Made by a program: the position numbers and the translations under genes
Notes under the pieces: generated by a model
Databases searched by the model: none
Told to the model about the DNA's origin: nothing
Seen by the model: the letters and a program-made list of their open reading frames with translations, nothing else
Assembly (NCBI GenBank): GCA_949130485.1
Contig: OX422184.1
Span: forward strand, 25,137,174 to 25,201,173
Direction of reading: 5' to 3'
Length of the DNA: 64,000 bases
DNA from: Agelas oroides
Lineage: Eukaryota > Porifera > Demospongiae > Agelasida > Agelasidae
In this document: positions 3,058 through 55,550 of the stretch, piece by piece
How positions within the stretch are numbered: position 1 is the first letter of the stretch
Layout: every line of letters begins with the position of its first letter

Positions 3058-3468
3058 CTTTTCTTTTTCAACCTCCCAACCCGCTCATGGCAACCACTTG
3101 TTGCAGTCTCACTCCTGAAGCTCTCCCCTCCTTGGCAGCTATGCTTCTTCCCTCTTCCCTCCCCTCTCCCTCCCTCCTAAGTCTTTCCTCTCTCTCCCAC
3201 TCTCTCCCTCCCTCCTCCCCTTCTTCCCTCTTCCCTCCCCTCCTTCCTCCCTCCTAAGTCTTTCCTCTCTCTCCCACTCTCTCCCTCCCTCCTCCCCTTC
3301 TTCCCTCTTCCCTCCCCTCCTTCCTCCCTCCTAAGTCTTTCCACTCTTTCCCACTCTCTCCCACTCTCCTCCTCCCTCCCTCCCTCCCTCCTCCCCTTCT
3401 TCCCTCTTCCCTCCCCTCCTTCCTCCCTCCAAAGTCTTTCCACTCTCTCCCACTCTCTCCCTTCTCAC
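3058..3468. repeat. Polypyrimidine (CCTCCCT/CTCTCCC) low-complexity tract in intron
   Basis: From about 3120 to 3465 the plus strand is an imperfect tandem of CCCTCCTCC, CTTCCCTC and CTCTCCCACT units with several roughly 60-bp duplications, for example the repeated segment containing CCTAAGTCTTTCC. Long frames across it are repeat artefacts. It is the intron sequence between the RhoGAP exon and the gypsy LTR. Confidence 0.9.
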
Positions 3469-15750
<12,282 letters not shown>

Positions 15751-33804: not shown

Positions 33805-33958
33805 CAACAAGCCGTTAACGACAGTATGTTAGCATGCATATGCTAAACGGTATTTATACCAGCCCTAACCCAACCCTAACCCTAACCCAACCCTAACCAT
33901 ATAAATCACTGTATAGCATATGGATGCCAACGTACTGTCGTTAATGGAAATCCATTGA
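33805..33958. repeat. Foldback with telomere-like (CCCTAA) loop
   Basis: 33863-33898 holds about six CCCTAA/CCCAACCCTAA units. It is flanked by inverted arms: GTTAACGACAGTATGTTAGC on the left, and on the right the inverse of CCAACGTACTGTCGTTAATG. This lies in the spacer of the 2.5-kb palindrome. Confidence 0.85.
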
Positions 33959-35359: not shown

Positions 35360-35716
35360 GGGTGAATTCAGTGTTGTTCCACCTCCACGCCCCCGAACTC
35401 CTCGGCGACCAGGGCCTCCGCCTGCAGGTGGTCCACGACCAGGTCCTGGAGCTGGTCCAGGAGCAGGTCCTGGGGGAGGAACAGGTCCTGGAGGAGGAAC
35501 AGGTCCTGGGGGAGGAACAGGACCTGGGGGAGGAACAGGTCCTGGAGGAGGAACAGGTCCTGGAGGAGGAACAGGTCCTGGAGGAGGAACAGGAGCAGGT
35601 CCTCGAGCTGGTCCACGTGCAGGCCCTGGAGCTGGTCCACGTGCAGGCCCTGGAGCTGGTCCACGTGCAGGCCCTCGAGCTGGTCCACGTGCAGGCCCTG
35701 GAGCTGGTCCACAAAC
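35360..35716 (-). CDS. Proline/glycine-rich exon with PPPGPV repeats
   Basis: A single 357-nt exon with acceptor CTTGCAG and donor GTAAGT, phase 0, encodes 119 residues: PAPGPARGPARG-type repeats, seven tandem PPPGPV hexapeptides, then GRGPPAGGGPGRRGVRGRGGG. The 18-nt DNA repeat (GGTCCTGGAGGAGGAACA and variants, plus strand about 35465-35600) is nearly identical between units, suggesting recent expansion. It may be an N-terminal exon of the coiled-coil gene on the same strand, but the inverted duplication lies between and the junction is not shown. Collagen-like or SH3-binding behaviour is only a composition-based guess. Confidence 0.55.
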
Positions 35717-46499: not shown

Positions 46500-46775
46500 A
46501 TATTTGTACCCAGAGGAGGTTGGAAGGTAGTAATTAGTGGTACGCGCGCGGAGTAGTACGCGCACACGCGCCTGCTTTAGGGATGACGTAATCGAGCGAG
46601 TCAATACAGATTTTCCATAGACAGGTGAAATCGATTTGCACCTCAGCGCTTCTTTTCTTCGGCGTGAAACTTGCTAAATGGATGGTGCCAGCTGTGCTGC
46701 AGATCGACCAGGGGGGCGCCCTTCAATCTGCATAGTCTTTGTGTGGCTAGTGGGATCCATCTCTGGTGTGTTTAC

Positions 46776-47791
46776 ATGGCAGACTCGTGTTCCGAATCCG
46801 AAGGCAAACGAAGCCGATCATCGACTCCCTCAAGCCAGCTTGAGTTGCTTGAGATCGGGAGACGGTACGAGTACCGTATACTATACCTAGTTTCAGCGCC
46901 ATAACAGTCAATCTGAGGCACGTTGTGGCAATGCATCCGGTATGTGTGGGAAAAGAATAAGCAAGCCCTGAAGCTACTGGACATGCTCGTGGGAGATGAT
47001 CCTGTGGCGCTCTCCAGCAGGAACAGTGGCGTTATCAGGGTTCTGAAAGGCTGCATTGTCAATGTAAGTTGCTTAAGCCACTGACATTACCCTTCACTTT
47101 ACTAATTTTGAGTGTTGATTAAAGCCTGGCAAGAGTGTGATGATAAAATTTTGTTGATCTTGTTATACAGGCCAGGGAGTTTTCATGTGAAATTGATATT
47201 CAAGATATGCGTATGGACTTCGAATTAGGTGTTTTTGTTGCATACAAATGGGAATGGGTGGACTTGGCAGAAGTTAGGGACAATGATGATGTTGACGATG
47301 TTGATGATGATGATGACCACGACCATAACACTGATAATGAACAAGGCAGCGATGATGGTGGTGAGGATGGAAACAGTGAGGATGATGGTGTACGCCTGCC
47401 ATACATAATGCACACAGTCTTTTTTAAGTGCATTGGTTCTAATCAAGAAGAGTCGTATCAACTTGCATTGCGGAAATCGAAGCAGTTGCTGAAAAGTGGA
47501 CAAGTGCCAGTAGAACTCCAACCCGAACCAACCAACCCCAAGGATTCACAAGCAATTGCATTTGTATGTCTGATAGATGGCAAGTGGGAGAAAATAGGTT
47601 ACGTTGTTCATGAAGCCCTCAGTGATGTTCATGCTGCCATAAAGAAGAGAAAAGTTTTATCTGTTAAATATGACTGGATCAAATTCATTACGGACTGGTC
47701 ACGAAGTGGTCCAGGATGGTTTGCTGGCATTGCCATAACCAGAGATGGTGACTGGTCCAGAGAGGTTATGAGATGTTGCAGTACACGTTAA
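46776..47791 (+). CDS. HIRAN-like accessory protein of element A
   Basis: The last exon (47171-47791, acceptor TTATACAG) is open to the stop. It has a strongly acidic stretch (47280-47390, Asp/Glu runs), then a domain with FFKCIGSNQEESYQ, a basic/hydrophobic stretch, EPTNPKDSQAIAFVC, KIGYVVHEALSDVHAAI and VKYDWIKFI. The pattern 'NPxDxxAIxV...IGYV' resembles HIRAN domains, which bind DNA ends or single-stranded DNA, although the similarity is read by eye. A preceding exon ends at 47063 in phase (RVLKGCIVN, then GTAAGT). The likely start is the ATG at 46776 (MADSCSESEGKRSRSS), but the splice out of this first exon is not resolved, and a stop in its frame at about 46902 requires splicing. It probably assists transposition. 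Confidence 0.6.
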
Positions 47792-47809
47792 TTTTTATAA
47801 CATACTGCC

Positions 47810-47940
47810 AACTCTTTGCAACTTTGACATTCATGATTATGTAATTAACAAAAGATTGTGATAAGAATATGAATAATTAGGCAAATGTTACTTCAATCAA
47901 TGTGTACACAATTAATACTGTCTACAGTTCATGATATTAT
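47810..47940. other. Convergent intergenic gap of element A
   Basis: The short AT-rich stretch between the stop codons of the two element A genes. It probably supplies both polyadenylation regions. Confidence 0.4.
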
Positions 47941-47949
47941 TATGCATAT

Positions 47950-50900
47950 GAATGTTCTGATAAGTGTTGCTGCACAGACCCAGGCGGTGTGGCAATTCTA
48001 ACGGTACATTGTGGTATGTCATTCTGATGGAACGTGCACTTGGAGTTGCAAGTGATGCACGACCGGTTATGAGACTGGAAGGTTGTTCTCGCCTTCGAAC
48101 ACGGTGCCTAGGATTCCGTTTCGGCTGTTGAAACTGGCTGAAGTCTGGCATGGGCCCTTCATAGAAGCGATCATGGCTTGAAGTGTGGTAGTAAAACTTG
48201 AGATCATGATTAGAGCATCGTTTCCATTCACGACTCTCAATATCAGTAGTAATTGCAATCAAAGATTCTCGTGTGATGCCACGAACACTACTGAGCCTCC
48301 TGTAAGTGTAAAGTATTTGACTATCATTGTCAGTATGTTACACTCAGTGTGCAATTACTTGACTATATGGTTACATTGTACACACATGTGCATACCTGTT
48401 CACTTCTAGGAGGCTGAAGTCATAGCACTCCTTGTGCCATGGCATAAGGTCATCAAGGAGAAAGTTGAGGAGATCATAGTTGTAGCGACAGCGTTGCAGC
48501 TCACTCAGGCCTTGCTCATCACATGCCCTTCTCCAGTTGCGAATAACCCTTATGTATTGTGCCTCAAATGTGTATCCATTTCCCAGCATGAACTGTTCCA
48601 TACTTTCACTGAACAGAACCTCAACATCTCTTATTGACTGCTTCCTTTGTCCTGTCAATGCTGGATACGTTAGACCGACTGTGGGGTCTTGCAGAGCCTC
48701 GGCAAATCTTTCCAACTCAAGTTCCTCTGGTCCACCTGCTCATGTACTCTGGCCAATTCTCTGTAAATGCAACAATGTTTATCCAGATAATGGAGATGAT
48801 GTTACACTGTTGGTGGGTTCTATTTAGAATGCGAAGTCTATCACATGCATGCACTGAGGATTTGGTAAGCAGACCTTAAATTCTGTCAGTATTGCTCTAC
48901 CCTAATGTGTACATACATGCGGCCAACAATAGATACATATACAAGAACAATAAGCTTGGGAAACACACCTTGAATACGTGTCCCTCGTCCTCTCGTTCAT
49001 GGAATTCTTTTCCAGTGATTGGGTGTATTTCTGGCACATAAATGTGCTGACGAAAAGGTACTCCATTGTCTTCCCACTGACAAACTTGGAACTTGAATTC
49101 TAGCTGGGCCAAAATTGATCGGAGCTGTTGGGTACGTGTCTCATCTCCTATATGTCACAAGTATGCATGCACAATTTTGCCTATCAAGAGACACAGTCTT
49201 CCACAGCAAACCTCAACATGCAAATTTATATTTCTTACCAGGTATCCAATTTGTTGGCGTGTATCCACTTGGGACTGTCCTTGGTCTGAGTCGTACAATA
49301 ATATCATCTTCCTTAGCACCCTCTTCTTTCCACTGCATTATATCCATCAGTAGGTGGGTAGAAACAGCTGGGTTTGGTAGCTTAGCTTGAACTGTACCAT
49401 CGGCAGCACCTATTGTTATAAACACATTGAATATTTGCAAAGTGATTGGTTACCCATACTTACGTAATGGAATTAGCATGTTCATCATCTTCCGCTGACC
49501 CATCTGGGCATACTTAGCCCGTGCTTGTACTCGAATCTGGAACACTGACAGTGGACGAGTATTTCCTTTCATTCGCATGCTGTTGAATTCACCATTGGTG
49601 ACTAGTCCTGACGCAAGAAAAAAATTATTATTATGTCAGGATGTGTTTTACACACACATGCATATGTGCACACACACACACAAATGCTGGTAGTGCACCA
49701 TTTAGAACATATCAGCCAAACACATAAACACTGGTAGTGCACTATTTTGACCAGCTACACGCATTCCTCTGTTGACCATCTCCTGTATCACCTTGTTGAC
49801 TAGTTCTCGAGCTTAATTGGGTGTCCGTCAATCCTACATATGGAATGCATTGTACTGGGAGAGCATATGGCTTGGCATTTCGCTCCTCAGGACTGATTAG
49901 AATAGCCCGTATGTGTGTAGCTGCAGTACGCTGGTGTTTGGAAAGCCCTTTGACAAACTCAGTGAGGCTTAGCTGTAGTGCTGTGATCTTCCGTGCCATG
50001 TTCAGCTCCACAAGGTCGATGTCAGAGTCTTGAAGGAGCTCCATTGTAACAATGATTTCAGTGACAATTTTCCGTCCACTTTCATTGAGACGTTGAAGTT
50101 CGTCAACTCTCCATGCAAGTTGGCGCAAAATTTTTTCCTGTGCTTTCCCCTCAGCTAGTTTGGTACTGTACTCTGTGTTTGTCTTCTCAAGAGCTACATG
50201 GATAATAAATTGCACAACAAAAATCTTTATCAATACAAGCAATACTATTGGTTTATACATACCAGATCCAGCAAAGCGGATGTCCTCCTCTAAGTTCTCC
50301 CTTTCTTTGCCAAACGTGCTATCAATAGCTGTCTTTCTGCCAGATCACTCATGTCACCAGTTATGTGGCTGAGCTCCCTGAGCCGCTTAAGGTAGGCATC
50401 ATGCATCTTTTGCACCTTCCCATCTGCAAGGTCAACATCACCGCTCCACACTTGCTGGACTGATTCCCCCAGACCACTTACAAGGTCACACCCATCAGCC
50501 TTAATCCACCATTGTGAATTTGGATGAACTTTGTGTGCCTCATCCAGTATGGCAGTCTGGGTTAGGTGATAAATACAGAATATTGAAAGCACTTTGCTAA
50601 ACAAGATCATCACTTTGATGTAGTTAGGAAGCAAGGAGAAGTGATTATCATCTATAGAAGAACATGTAATTGTGGATTCTAATACCTGGATTTCTGCACC
50701 AGTTGTAAATGAACTTTTTCCAATGTTCTCACGAATGGTTCTCTCAGATGGTGCTGGGATATTCATTCGGGCCTAACAGTAGGACAGTAAAGTGGTAAAT
50801 GACAGAAACAGTTACAGAAAATTGGCCTTGTTCAATCCGCTCATATCCAGTCGCAGGACCCCGGTGCAGCTTCGACCACTTATTGCCAAAGAGACAATAC

Positions 50901-52282
50901 ATGGTCTCAAGCCATGACATGTGGTCATCTGAACATTTGCCCTGCATCTGTCAAAATGACACAATTAAGTTTTCACAATTATAGCTAATCAAGTATCAAT
51001 ACTGACATACCTCACGATAGGAGTCGGAATTGTAGAAATCTACCATGTACTGTAGCAAGCCCATGGGCATTCTCTGCGCAGGGAATCGTGAATCTGATGC
51101 ATCCTCTCTAAAAGTCCCTAAACCCTGGGCAAGGTTATACAGGACATTTTCACGTCCACATGATTTAGGATGTTGCATTCCTTGAAGTGAAAGTGTAAGG
51201 TAGTCAGATGGTACATATAGTCCATGCTGTTGAAGGGCCAATGACTGGAAGAGACGAACGAGTAACTCGAGCTGCTGACTGGCAGGGAATGTCTGTATTC
51301 GATCAACAATGGACTCATGTGTGTCAAGCATTTCCACATGTAGAGGAGACAGGTCACTGAGTTGTTCTTCACCTGATGATGGGACTGTAGAAGTAGGAGG
51401 GGATGATGGCAGCATAGACCAATTTGCTATATGAGTTGCAAGTAGTTCAATCATGTCTTCGGATGGACTTGGGTGGTTTCTTGTCTCAGGAGATGGTGTC
51501 TTGAAATGTTCAGTATAAGCATCAAAAGGCTCAATGCTGCACTCGTGTGTGGTACGCTCTTCCGCGTCTACAGTAGACAGGTCACAGCATTCGTCATCTG
51601 TTGATGGGACTGGATAGGATGGGATGGTACTGTGCACCGATTCTCCACTTCAGTTGTGAGTGCTTGTGTGGACTGTCCATTGGTGTCTTCAAAAGAACCA
51701 GAGTGACTGCATGTTTTGGGAGATGGTGTCTTGGTTTGCTCATAAGTATGGGATGGTGGGGTTGAAGGTGATGATGGGGTTGAAGGTGATGATGGCCAAG
51801 GAACTGTTCCTGAATCTGGGGCCTTGAGAAATTCTGCAGCATCAGTTGGAGTGTGAAACTGCTTTTGAAGATTCTTGGTGACTTTTTACCGGCATGCTCT
51901 AGCTGAAATGTAACAAACACTGATAATAACAGTTTGCACTACATGTGTGATTGGTCTTACCTGTTCTTGTAGTATCACTGCCCCTCTCAGCTACAAACTC
52001 AGCAGCACTCTTCCAGAAATCCCCCTTTTTGGTGTGTGGCCACATGTCTCCATCAGAATGCAAAACAACAAACTCGACCAAGGCCCTCAGTTCTTCTCTT
52101 TTCCATCCGCTGTCAACCGTGCTACATGTACTCAGGACAGCCTCATCAAACGACAGCCTCTTGCTCGCAGATGCCTTCTTCTTCTTTCCTTTACGACAAG
52201 ACTTTCTCTTCCTAGGTTGCTGCGGTGTTATCCCGGTAGGCGAGCTTCGCACTCGCTTTCCACGAGTACTGGTATCCGCCAT
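47950..52282 (-). pseudogene. Transposase-type gene of element A, multi-exon, disrupted
   Basis: Minus-strand exons in order: ATG at 52282 (MADTSTRGKRVRSS), a basic KRKSCRKGKKKK stretch and a Myb/SANT-like segment (GWKREELRALVEFVVLHSDG) ending at a GTAAGA donor near 51961; a Ser/Thr/Pro-rich exon; then DYLTLSLQGMQHPKSCGRENVL; MSWLETMYCLFGNKWSKLH; ERTIRENIGKSSFTTGAEI; a conserved-looking WWIKADGCDLVSGLGES and WSGDVDLADGKV; KRLRELSH; AYALPVQC-type segment (KPYALPVQCIPYVGL); HPITGKEFHEREDEGHVFK; LTYPALTGQRKQSI; LSELQRCRYNYDLLNFLLDD; RFYEGPMPDFSQ. Lesions: a TAA after ARACR near 51893 and a frameshift near 51620. From memory of related proteins, a segment also appears to be missing between REWKRC and FYYHTSSHD (about 48200). 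SANT-like plus acidic-motif architecture suggests a DNA-binding transposase. The catalytic residues are not proven. Confidence 0.6.
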
Positions 52283-52526
52283 CGCAACCTCGCCTCTGAA
52301 TACCAATTCTCCCCACACTAGCCACACAGACTTTGCGGATTGAAGGGCGCCCCCCTGGTCGATCTGCAGGACAGCTGGCACCACCCATTTAGCAAGTTTC
52401 ATGCCGAACAAAAGAAGCGCTGAGGTGCAAATCGATTTCACCTGTCTATGGAAAATCTGTATTGACTCGCTCGATTACGTCATCCCTAAAGCAGGCGCGC
52501 GCGTGTGTACTCCGCGCGTACCACTA

Positions 52527-54467
52527 TAGTGGATCATGGATCGAGTGGGAGGGATTGGAAGCGGATCACGTGCGCCCTATCTTACAATACTTAGCGTGTA
52601 CGTGTTGAAACAGTCCGCGTTGTAGCGAAAGTGTGGAATTTGACACAATGTGGTTCGGTTTTGCACACCTCACCCGACTTGGAAGAGAAGAAGTAGCCGG
52701 TTTTTGCTAAGAAGAAGAAAGGACAGACAGAATAGGTATGTGTTTCGTGTTGTATTGTGATCTACTGTTGATATTTTCCATCGAGTAGACTGTTTTACCC
52801 CGTAGAAAGCGCAATAAAGCTGAATGCTTTTGTGGGCGCACAGAGAAGCTACCGTAAACGCTTTAATTAACGCGCCGTTAAAAAATAATTACGATCCGCA
52901 AAGGCGCCTTGTTCGGAGAGAAAAAAATTACTTCGGACCCTTGGGGCGCCTTATTTAGAGAGGCGCCTCCGAATTAGAGTGCAACTGACACCTTTCCGTG
53001 AAGTTGAAAGAGCTGAGTATGGCTACACTGACAACGATCGAATTTGAGTACGTTATTCGAGGCTATCATGAATACAAGCGCGTTTGGAGTACAGAGATTA
53101 AAGTAGAAGTAGAAATCAGTCGAAGAATTAGATGTCTCGAAAGTCACACGGGTCGGGTGCGAAATCTCTCTTAATAGAAAGCGCCGTTAAAAAATATTTA
53201 TGTCGTCAAGGGGTGCCCGCGTTAGAGCGAGAAAAATTAGTTTCTTGTCAAAAGGGCGCTTTCATTAGAGAGGCGCGTTAATTAAAGCGTTTACGGGTAC
53301 TGAATATATATCTTTCAGGGAGCCTGAGAGCTAGTTTTAGTGCTTGTACATTGTTTGGTGTACATTATTTTGAGTTTTACTTGTGTTGAGTTGCACAGTA
53401 GTTGGCATCACCAGTTGCTTCGTGCGTCTCCGAACAATGGACTTTGTGGGTGTACCCGATGGCCTTGAGAATATGTGAAATACTGAAAGCTTTACATCAT
53501 TTTACAAACCTACCATAGATGTAATGCAGGGTATGTATATATATATTTGTTGGCTATTCATAGCTTGATCTGTATAGAATCCATCTCTGTTCCTACCTCC
53601 TTCAACGAGTTGCCGCTAGGTATGCCATTATGCCATAGATAGTACTATGGGTTGCAAACTTGTCATGAGATGTTAGAAATCACTCATGGGTCTATACTGA
53701 CTGTATATAGGATGTGTGATGGTGTACAGAACTGGGCATAGATAGAAGAAGAACAAGGAGCAGAAATTCACCAAAACGTCATTTATGTAGTTGTATGCAT
53801 GTTGTGCAAGTTCATTGCCTGTAAGACTATTAATGTACATGAAATGCATCTACTATAGCTACTTGCCTATCAAATTTTCAGCAAGATGTGTTATTCTGGT
53901 TTGTTGCACCAGTCATTCAACAATAAGGCTTGATTTCTATAGCTTCTGCTGCTGGAAACTGGAAGCCATCATCACACAGTACTGTTGGTACTTGGTAGTG
54001 CTGTCAGGAACAGTTGCAGCTGATAATAAAATGCTTTATTAGCTATAGGACTACTGTGTTTTTAAGCGAGCCTCAGATCATAGTCTTCTTGAAATTTACT
54101 GTAGTAAAGTCATAGATCACTATCTATGGCAGAGGACATGCTATACACGAAGCTAGCTGGCTACTGTGGCTTTATTATCTTACCTGTGACTGTGGAAAAA
54201 GTAGTCTGCGGTACTACAACGGTAGCCATCATCCACAGATCTTTGAAGAAGTTATTACTCTCCGTCTTTGATAATTCAAACCTAGTCGACTGGCACTGAC
54301 TGATGGGCATGGATTAGAAACAGGAAGTACTTTCTGCGCTGTGTGTTAAAATCCGGTACAACGCGGACTGTCGGTGTGAACGGGTGCTAATATACGCCGT
54401 TTCCAATCCCTCCCACTCCACTATCTATGGTACCACCATAGATATATGACACGGAACTCCGTCTATG
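52527..54467. mobile_element. Element C inserted in the right TIR of element A
   Basis: GTACCACTA is duplicated at 52518-52526 and 54468-54476; the left TIR of element A has it once, so the insertion is certain. Near the ends, GAGTGGGAGGGATTGGAA (about 52549) is inverted at about 54398-54420, and ACAGTCCGCGTTGTA (about 52610) is inverted at about 54360, giving TIRs of about 90 bp. The last 40 bp contain a small CATAGA...TCTATG hairpin and a second GGTACCAC. No transposase is seen. The 9-bp duplication again suits Mutator-like elements. Confidence 0.82.
52852..53296. mobile_element. MITE D nested in element C
   Basis: CCGTAAACGCTTTAATTAAC at 52852 is inverted at the right end (GTTAATTAAAGCGTTTACGG, ending 53296). 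Inner segments (CGCCGTTAAAAAATA, GGCGCC, TTAGAGAGGCGC) are repeated between the halves. 445 bp, no coding capacity. Confidence 0.85.
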
Positions 54468-54500
54468 GTACCACTAATTACTAGCTTCCAACCTCCTCTG

Positions 54501-55550
54501 ATTGGTACCTAAATGCCACTAGTCCGACCACTGTAAAAAAGGAAAGGTTGTTTTGGCTCAATTTGGTTATCTCAGTTTCCTCTCACTTGTCTGCATTGTT
54601 AAACACAGTGATGTCCCACTGCCTGCTTTAGATTCCAAACAGATTAAGAACTTGATTAGGCTTTCCAGAACATTAGCAAATGTCATGGGAGAATACTTTG
54701 CTAATGAAATTGTCCAATCATGTGGAAAATGGTATGAAACTGAGGTAACCAAAATGGGTTAAAACTACCCACTTTTTCTTACAGTGACATAGAGTACATG
54801 GCGGGAGTAATACCACCGTTCGCCACGGTACATGTCAGTCGTCACGAGGCGTTTCAGTCACTATAGTCGTCGACCTTGTACGTGTCGGGCCTGATGAGTA
54901 GTCTCGCGGATCCAGACTAGTCTGGCTCCGCGAGACTACCTGATGAGGTGGGCATCTTATAGACGAACTGACAACTGGACAAGAACAGTTTCTACTTTGT
55001 ACTTCACTTTGAAACTAGTTCAGTGATTGCTCACTGCAAAAGCGGTCACAAAGGTCACCACCACACTTAACAGCTTGAAGGGGGGGGCACTTTGCAGCAA
55101 AATCTCTTCAAGGGGGGGGCACGTGCCCCTGGTGCCCACCCGGTTCCGCCGCCTATGGTATTAACATTTCTTCTGGTAGCTATATCCTAGCCAGGTAAAT
55201 CAATTTTTTAGGTACTGTCCAAATTTAAATTGAATAACAATTTTGCAGTCAGTAGCTAGCTTCATCATCTCTACTTTGCTTGCATACATTTTGGTATGCC
55301 ATAGATGCATCTTTACACATTTTTAAATGTTCTTCGACCAGAAAATGTGTAGTAGTAATTATCCATCACGTGATTTTCATATATTTCCGCATTCTCATCC
55401 TTGCGCAACAAATTTTAATAAAGCACATACACAGTTTTTTAATCCACAAAATTAGTATACTTATGCATATATATGTATGCATATGAATTATTTTTGATGG
55501 GCGCCTATATTACAAACTATATGGTATATACTTTTCTGCAGTCATTTCAA
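54501..55550. other. Intergenic with small palindromes
   Basis: 54898-54939 is a 42-bp near-perfect palindrome (GTAGTCTCGCGGATCCAGAC and its inverse). 55075-55158 is a G-rich repeat ending GGTTCCGCCGCCTATGG. The region upstream of 55554 is AT-rich; CTTTTCTGCAG at 55530-55540 could be an acceptor, so a 5' non-coding exon upstream is possible. Confidence 0.6.

Follow-up and report, generated by a model that had tools for sequence, protein, structure and literature searches.

A two-gene transposon in a sponge genome

The window analysed in our study, a stretch of 64,000 nucleotides from contig OX422184.1 of the sponge Agelas oroides, contains at 46511-54500 a DNA transposon with long terminal inverted repeats (TIRs) that carries two convergent predicted genes, a multi-exon transposase gene on the minus strand and a partner gene with a HIRAN-like domain on the plus strand. 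An earlier note made from the sequence alone had read this interval as a single element; our analysis established that its ends hold and that a nested insertion, not separated in the note, splits its right TIR. The left TIR (46511-46743, plus strand) begins CAGAGGAGGTTGG, and the right TIR (minus strand) is divided into an inner part at 52323-52517 and an outer end at 54468-54500, which terminates CCTCCTCTG. Inverted-repeat search pairs the outer arms (46511-46543 with 54468-54500; 33 nt, 97%) and the inner arms (46555-46743 with 52323-52511; 189 nt, 94%), and the gap between the two right arms is the nested 1.94-kb insertion at 52527-54467. The 9-bp sequence GTACCACTA stands on both of its borders, at 52518 and 54468, and the insertion together with these repeats, delimited from them and from genome copies, occupies 52518-54476; once the insertion and one copy of GTACCACTA are subtracted, the element measures approximately 6.0 kb. 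Its flanks, ATTTGTACC on the left (46502-46510) and ATTGGTACC on the right (54501-54509), are identical at eight of nine positions, in agreement with the near-perfect 9-bp duplication described earlier. The TIRs of more than 240 bp reported in the note were also recovered, given that in a sister copy the TIR is uninterrupted and spans 252 alignment columns at 95%.

This sister copy, L009, was found in the genome searched (259 Mb in 141 contigs) at C2:12460130-12466559. It is 6430 bp long, is approximately 94-97% identical to the window copy in long pieces, has both genes and is flanked by an exact 8-bp duplication, TAACCAAC. We refer to the two copies as family A, and labels such as C5, C18 and C21 denote other loci in the genome. 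The window TIR has at least 61 matches genome-wide, from which 17 further loci were retrieved; their TIRs are approximately 70% identical to that of the window, and most of those that were resolved measure 330-480 bp. Eight of the 17 are flanked by an exact 9-bp duplication and one more by a duplication with 8/9 identity. At the eight remaining loci no duplication was found: in two (L021 and L023) both ends are present and the flanks differ, and at the other six a second end with fewer than three mismatches in 12 is absent. In the divergent relative C18, the ends read CA[AG]GGGGGGTCGG and the 9-bp flanks GTAATTAAC and GTGATTAAC agree at 8/9 positions, the longest match obtained when end offsets were scanned. 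Nine base pairs is therefore the rule among resolvable loci, with the 8-bp duplication of L009 as the one exception. The expectation that other copies would share the 9-bp duplication is thus borne out at the exact cases and fails at the sister copy; a uniform length, from which any departure had been named beforehand as counting against the note's reading, does not hold.

The nested insertion has a second copy at C23:5174657-5176217, in pieces 82-92% identical. Within it, at 52850-53296, lies a high-copy 447-bp inverted-repeat element with ends near CCGTAAACGCTTTAATTAA, of which the genome holds at least 38 further copies at 92-98% identity.

The exons of the transposase gene were predicted in L009 on the basis of splice consensus and transferred to the window by alignment. 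Exon 1 (51965-52282), for which a profile and a structural model were also used, carries the first part of a Myb/SANT-like domain. It is followed on the minus strand by exon 2 (51011-51903), exon 3 (50820-50950), exon 4 with a PSERTIRE motif recognized by motif block comparison (50686-50772), exon 5 with the first-D motif WWIKADGCD (50261-50556), exon 6 with the ATHI..IS..KPYALPVQC block (49750-50194), exon 7 with the second-D region, VTNGEF in the window (49462-49608), exon 8 (49237-49410), exon 9 with a DxxH-like motif, EDEGH (48969-49146), exon 10 (48395-48760) and the last exon or exons (47943-48298); open reading frames support exons 2, 5, 6 and 9. Aligned relatives share WWIKADG[CV]D around the first D, the ATHIxVxMIS..KPYAxPVQC block, VTDGEFNS in the second-D region and HPRASTTDDVECFF, and the first D is conserved among the copies compared. 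In L009, the N-terminal read has a Myb_DNA-bind_4 (PF13837) match at E=9.4e-5 with 23.2 bits, under the cut-off of 27; this family is matched in two of three N-terminal reads, the second being C5 (E=0.0088), and C18 gave nothing. An AlphaFold model of the first exon has a mean predicted local distance difference test score (pLDDT) of 64.5, with helices at residues 45-51, 62-75 and 87-101. These results are in keeping with the multi-exon gene with a SANT/Myb-like N-terminus that the note had described.

The partner gene comprises two predicted exons on the plus strand. Exon 1 (46776-47063), defined by open reading frames and by alignment to L009, has a broken frame in the window and one in-frame stop in L009; exon 2 (47171-47791) is open and encodes an acidic stretch followed by the HIRAN-like domain, with relatives in C5, C2b and C18. 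Three of the four members match the HIRAN profile (PF08797), the best at E=1.8e-4 (21.7 bits) and the window at E=1.9e-4 (21.6 bits), both under the cut-off of 24.7 bits, and the match spans approximately 60 residues with an EPxNPxDxxAIAF...GYV core. The convergent gene with an acidic region and a HIRAN-like domain is accordingly present as the note had proposed.

Recurrence of the gene pair and state of the copies

A genome-wide search with HIRAN exon 2 gave six matches at five loci (the window, L009, C5, C2b and C18), and at all five the HIRAN gene adjoins the transposase described here. Our results demonstrate that the gene pair recurs in three divergent families and in two gene orders (convergent for A and C18, divergent for C5). 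This bears out the suggestion that two-gene elements with a Myb/SANT-like domain and a HIRAN-like partner form a lineage of their own. The acidic stretch, the HIRAN-like core and a GPGxxAGI tail are common to the A and C5 proteins (approximately 40% identity); of these three parts, C18 has the last two (approximately 36%). Remnants of HIRAN exon 1 were identified at C4 (E=2e-23) and, more weakly, at C15 (29 residues, E=3e-4). Long inverted ends rich in repeats mark related two-gene elements at L038, L049 and L050 (C5:7659350-7666216; C2b:6840617-6844769); the exact ends of the C5/C2b/C2d family were looked for and not found. Scans of viral contigs and prokaryote genomes, each based on one short peptide pattern, confirmed no relatives.

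The window copy is dead, because the putative catalytic-E motif of its transposase, STTDDVECFF, has been deleted together with approximately 155 bp of the L009 sequence at 48203-48210. Other damage is spread over the gene: exon 2 contains an in-frame stop and has lost its frame, the frames of exons 5 and 6 are likewise broken, and exon 3 is short, with 31 nt at its 3' end unmatched. The L009 transposase is broken as well, in two exons. Between the two A copies, the ratio of nonsynonymous to synonymous substitution rates (dN/dS) of the transposase is 0.37 (860 codons, 31 synonymous and 39 nonsynonymous changes), calculated over eight exons with broken or partial exons excluded, gapped codons dropped and two stop codons skipped. 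The corresponding value for the HIRAN gene is 0.45 (205 codons, seven synonymous and 13 nonsynonymous changes), and between C5 and C2b two parts of this gene gave 0.76 and 0.41 on few changes. These values, which come from small numbers, would fit genes that were once under constraint and have since decayed.

Similarity of the transposase core to known families

Special attention was given to the affinities of the transposase core. The C5 relative matches TNP-like_RNaseH_N (PF21787), the RNase H-like family of P-type transposases, at E=0.0011. As aligned, three of seven members match this family, and six non-transposase families match one member each at E 0.037 or worse. When the long insertion was cut out by hand, PF21787 was the sole Pfam family in all four trimmed cores (C5, 4.4e-5; C21, 1.7e-4; A, 5.3e-3, on the L009 core in exon 6; C14, 0.11). 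The whole L009 transposase read gave no Pfam match, including the stretch from the second D to the E, where the GTP-binding insertion domain of P was sought, and no THAP match was found in the three N-terminal reads. A SERT-LR motif upstream of the first D resembles its counterpart in P-like proteins of the same genome. These proteins, taken from genome-wide PF21787 and PF21789 matches, served as partners in a profile-profile comparison, in which the region between the two D residues scored 32.1 against a best value of 21.8 in 60 column shuffles. In four blocks chosen by eye, the real score was reached by 1/100 shuffles for SERT-D1, 0/100 for strand-D2, 4/100 for DxxH and 2/100 for the E block, which is in register with the P-like profile, and by 0/100 when the blocks were joined. 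Taken together, the comparisons provide evidence that is "good but not conclusive" for a distant P-type RNase H-like core in the transposase.

The earlier note had compared the element to Mutator, and it is on this point that our results depart from it. Mutator-like elements (MULEs) are characterized by 9-bp duplications and long TIRs, and a MULE or Rehavkus-like element with unusual extra domains would fit both properties of the window element; the C/DxxH motif common to MuDR, according to the accessible part of PMC9587614, also agrees with it. However, no transposase read searched matches the MULE profile (PF10551), and the element is absent among the 119 MULE matches listed elsewhere in the genome, which show that the profile works. 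A MULE origin is disfavoured on the strength of these sequence-against-profile searches and we consider it very improbable, the sole recurring transposase family being the P-type TNP-like_RNaseH_N.

Outside the element, we observed tandem arrays with a strong purine/pyrimidine skew at 3144-12000 (GC skew 0.54 at 10001-12000), tandem units of 18 and 24 bp that are possibly a coding repeat at 35421-35712, a short telomere-like CCCTAA run in the interior of the window at 33863-33898, and a near-perfect 42-bp palindrome without spacer at 54898-54939.

Origin of the lineage, possible mechanism and relation to known systems

In the reading that we consider probable, the element in the window is a cut-and-paste DNA transposon with two genes, a copy that has decayed and has taken up a nested insertion, and its lineage is distantly related to the P superfamily. 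It is important to note that several results weigh against this reading. The Pfam matches for the core, the Myb/SANT domain and the HIRAN domain are all under curated cut-offs, the best PF21787 core score being 24.2 against 24.6 bits, and the E block, which would correspond to the C-terminal RNase H part (PF21789), has no Pfam match in any of the nine members. In the profile-profile comparison the E region scored 11.8, below shuffles (best 21.3), and the joined block alignment spans the first two blocks only. Among the 67 and 70 matches listed by genome-wide PF21787 and PF21789 searches (E<=1), none lies at a locus of the window lineage, and the similarity is therefore too weak to be picked up when a genome is scanned exon by exon. 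PDB sequence searches with the transposase and the HIRAN protein gave no useful match, and the AlphaFold model of the HIRAN protein, at a pLDDT of 39.4 and with no Foldseek match at E<=0.001, is too poor to be of use. Among nine copies read, three (C5, C6 and C15b) have D at the position of the second D, five have N (C1, C2c, C21 and the two A copies) and C14 has G; DxxH was read in three of seven families (A, C21 and C6) and is missing from C1, C2c, C5 and C14. Finally, two pieces of the transposase, searched against the genome, matched 18 and 29 times, and among the 18 transposase-match loci examined for HIRAN (16 relatives, the window and L009; C9:6257741 lies outside this set) HIRAN-gene sequence was found at seven and none at 11, most of which are fragments, C21 being read over 7.9 kb. 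Copies that lack the plus-strand gene had been named in the note as a second departure that would count against its reading. As to the second D, decay of CpG is a possible cause of its change to N, because the preceding base is C in four of the five N copies (those of A, C21 and C1) and another base in the three D copies; C2c does not fit.

An alternative that we regard as possible, if doubtful, is a separate superfamily within the wider hAT/P/MuDR/Kolobok/Dada group to which P is no closer than the others. The duplication length, the spacing of the D residues and the DNA-binding domain all differ from P, the C/DxxH motif is common to five superfamilies in the accessible text of PMC9587614, the genome-wide P-profile searches contain no window-lineage loci among the matches listed, and the P-type core comparison was made without hAT, Kolobok or Dada cores. 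Nevertheless, PF21787 is the sole transposase-family match, and the likeness of the SERT-LR motif to that of P-like proteins in the same genome speaks for the closer relationship with P. With regard to the second gene, it could have been captured as a passenger and play no part in transposition, as HIRAN domains are found in host repair helicases; its absence within 7.9 kb at C21 and the C5-C2b dN/dS values would suit such an origin. Against it stand the adjacency to the transposase at all five HIRAN loci, the protein layout kept between A and C5 and in part in C18, the exon-1 remnants at C4 and C15, and the dN/dS of 0.45 between the A copies, and we judge a passenger unlikely.

On the P-related reading, the first gene encodes a transposase with a Myb/SANT-like N-terminal domain, an RNase H-like core, a long stretch and a C-terminal putative catalytic-E motif; the Myb/SANT domain may bind the TIRs, and the DDE core would cut and join DNA with a staggered cut usually of 9 bp. 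The second gene, which begins at the opposite TIR and points towards the first, encodes the acidic protein with the HIRAN-like domain. The predicted start codon of the partner gene (46776) is 33 bp inward of the TIR edge at 46743 and that of the transposase gene (52282) is 41 bp inward of the edge at 52323, and the TIRs therefore probably drive both genes as promoters. The HIRAN domain of HLTF binds DNA ends, and the transposon-encoded protein might by analogy keep hold of DNA ends, shield them, or bring repair to gaps made during transposition. As a tentative and somewhat unlikely proposal, we put forward that the lineage is a P-related transposon superfamily that has yet to be described, in which a HIRAN-domain protein works as a subunit of the transposition machinery and keeps hold of, or shields, the ends of transposon or target DNA. 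No transposon with a HIRAN gene is described among the listed titles and abstract openings of open PubMed Central papers on HIRAN and transposons, 20 of 377 being listed in the broadest case; Repbase, Dfam and the subscription literature, where an entry may exist, are outside this scope.

The accessory genes of DNA-repair type that some transposons carry give clues to the host steps by which transposition is limited, and the HIRAN partner, if its role is as proposed, would point to how ends or gaps are dealt with once the cut is made. With this lineage, both the duplication lengths and the DNA-binding domains found around P-type transposases would become more varied, and it is also a candidate source of mobility for miniature inverted-repeat transposable elements (MITEs) with 9-bp duplications.

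Compared with known systems, the window lineage resembles MuDR and Rehavkus in its 9-bp duplications, long TIRs and possible DxxH motif, but it lacks a MULE profile match. It resembles HLTF-type HIRAN proteins in the weak PF08797 match and its core, but the HIRAN protein here is small, acidic, transposon-encoded and without an attached helicase in the reads. Kolobok elements are likewise DDE transposons and have lineages with accessory proteins (KolX, exonucleases, RecQ helicase), but their duplications are the 4-bp TTAA, or 3-5 bp in KolobokP, and a HIRAN partner is unmentioned in the accessible part of that source (PMC9587614). Duplications of approximately 8 bp are given for P and hAT and of 7-8 bp for Galileo (PMC3706591, PMC4168063), and P-superfamily transposases carry THAP (PMC4168063), in the portions available of these papers; the window lineage usually has 9 bp, with 8 bp at the full copy L009, and a Myb/SANT-like domain in place of THAP. 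In the DmTNP transposase, D230 and D303 are 73 residues apart according to the available text of PMC8230255, and approximately 106 residues separate the two positions in the P-like L081 of the same genome, whereas the spacing is approximately 230 residues in the window lineage, which, unlike P, also has a second gene with a HIRAN-like domain. The element is P-like and is placed outside the P superfamily because three features of P, namely the 7-8-bp duplication, THAP and the spacing of the two D residues, differ in it. What it has in common with the P superfamily (P element, Galileo, THAP9) is the weak and exclusive Pfam similarity to TNP-like_RNaseH_N, the motif order SERT-LR, first D, second D, DxxH (in three of seven families) and E, and termini that start with CA, as those of the P element do. 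Long TIRs are shared with Galileo in particular, as described in the accessible part of PMC4168063.

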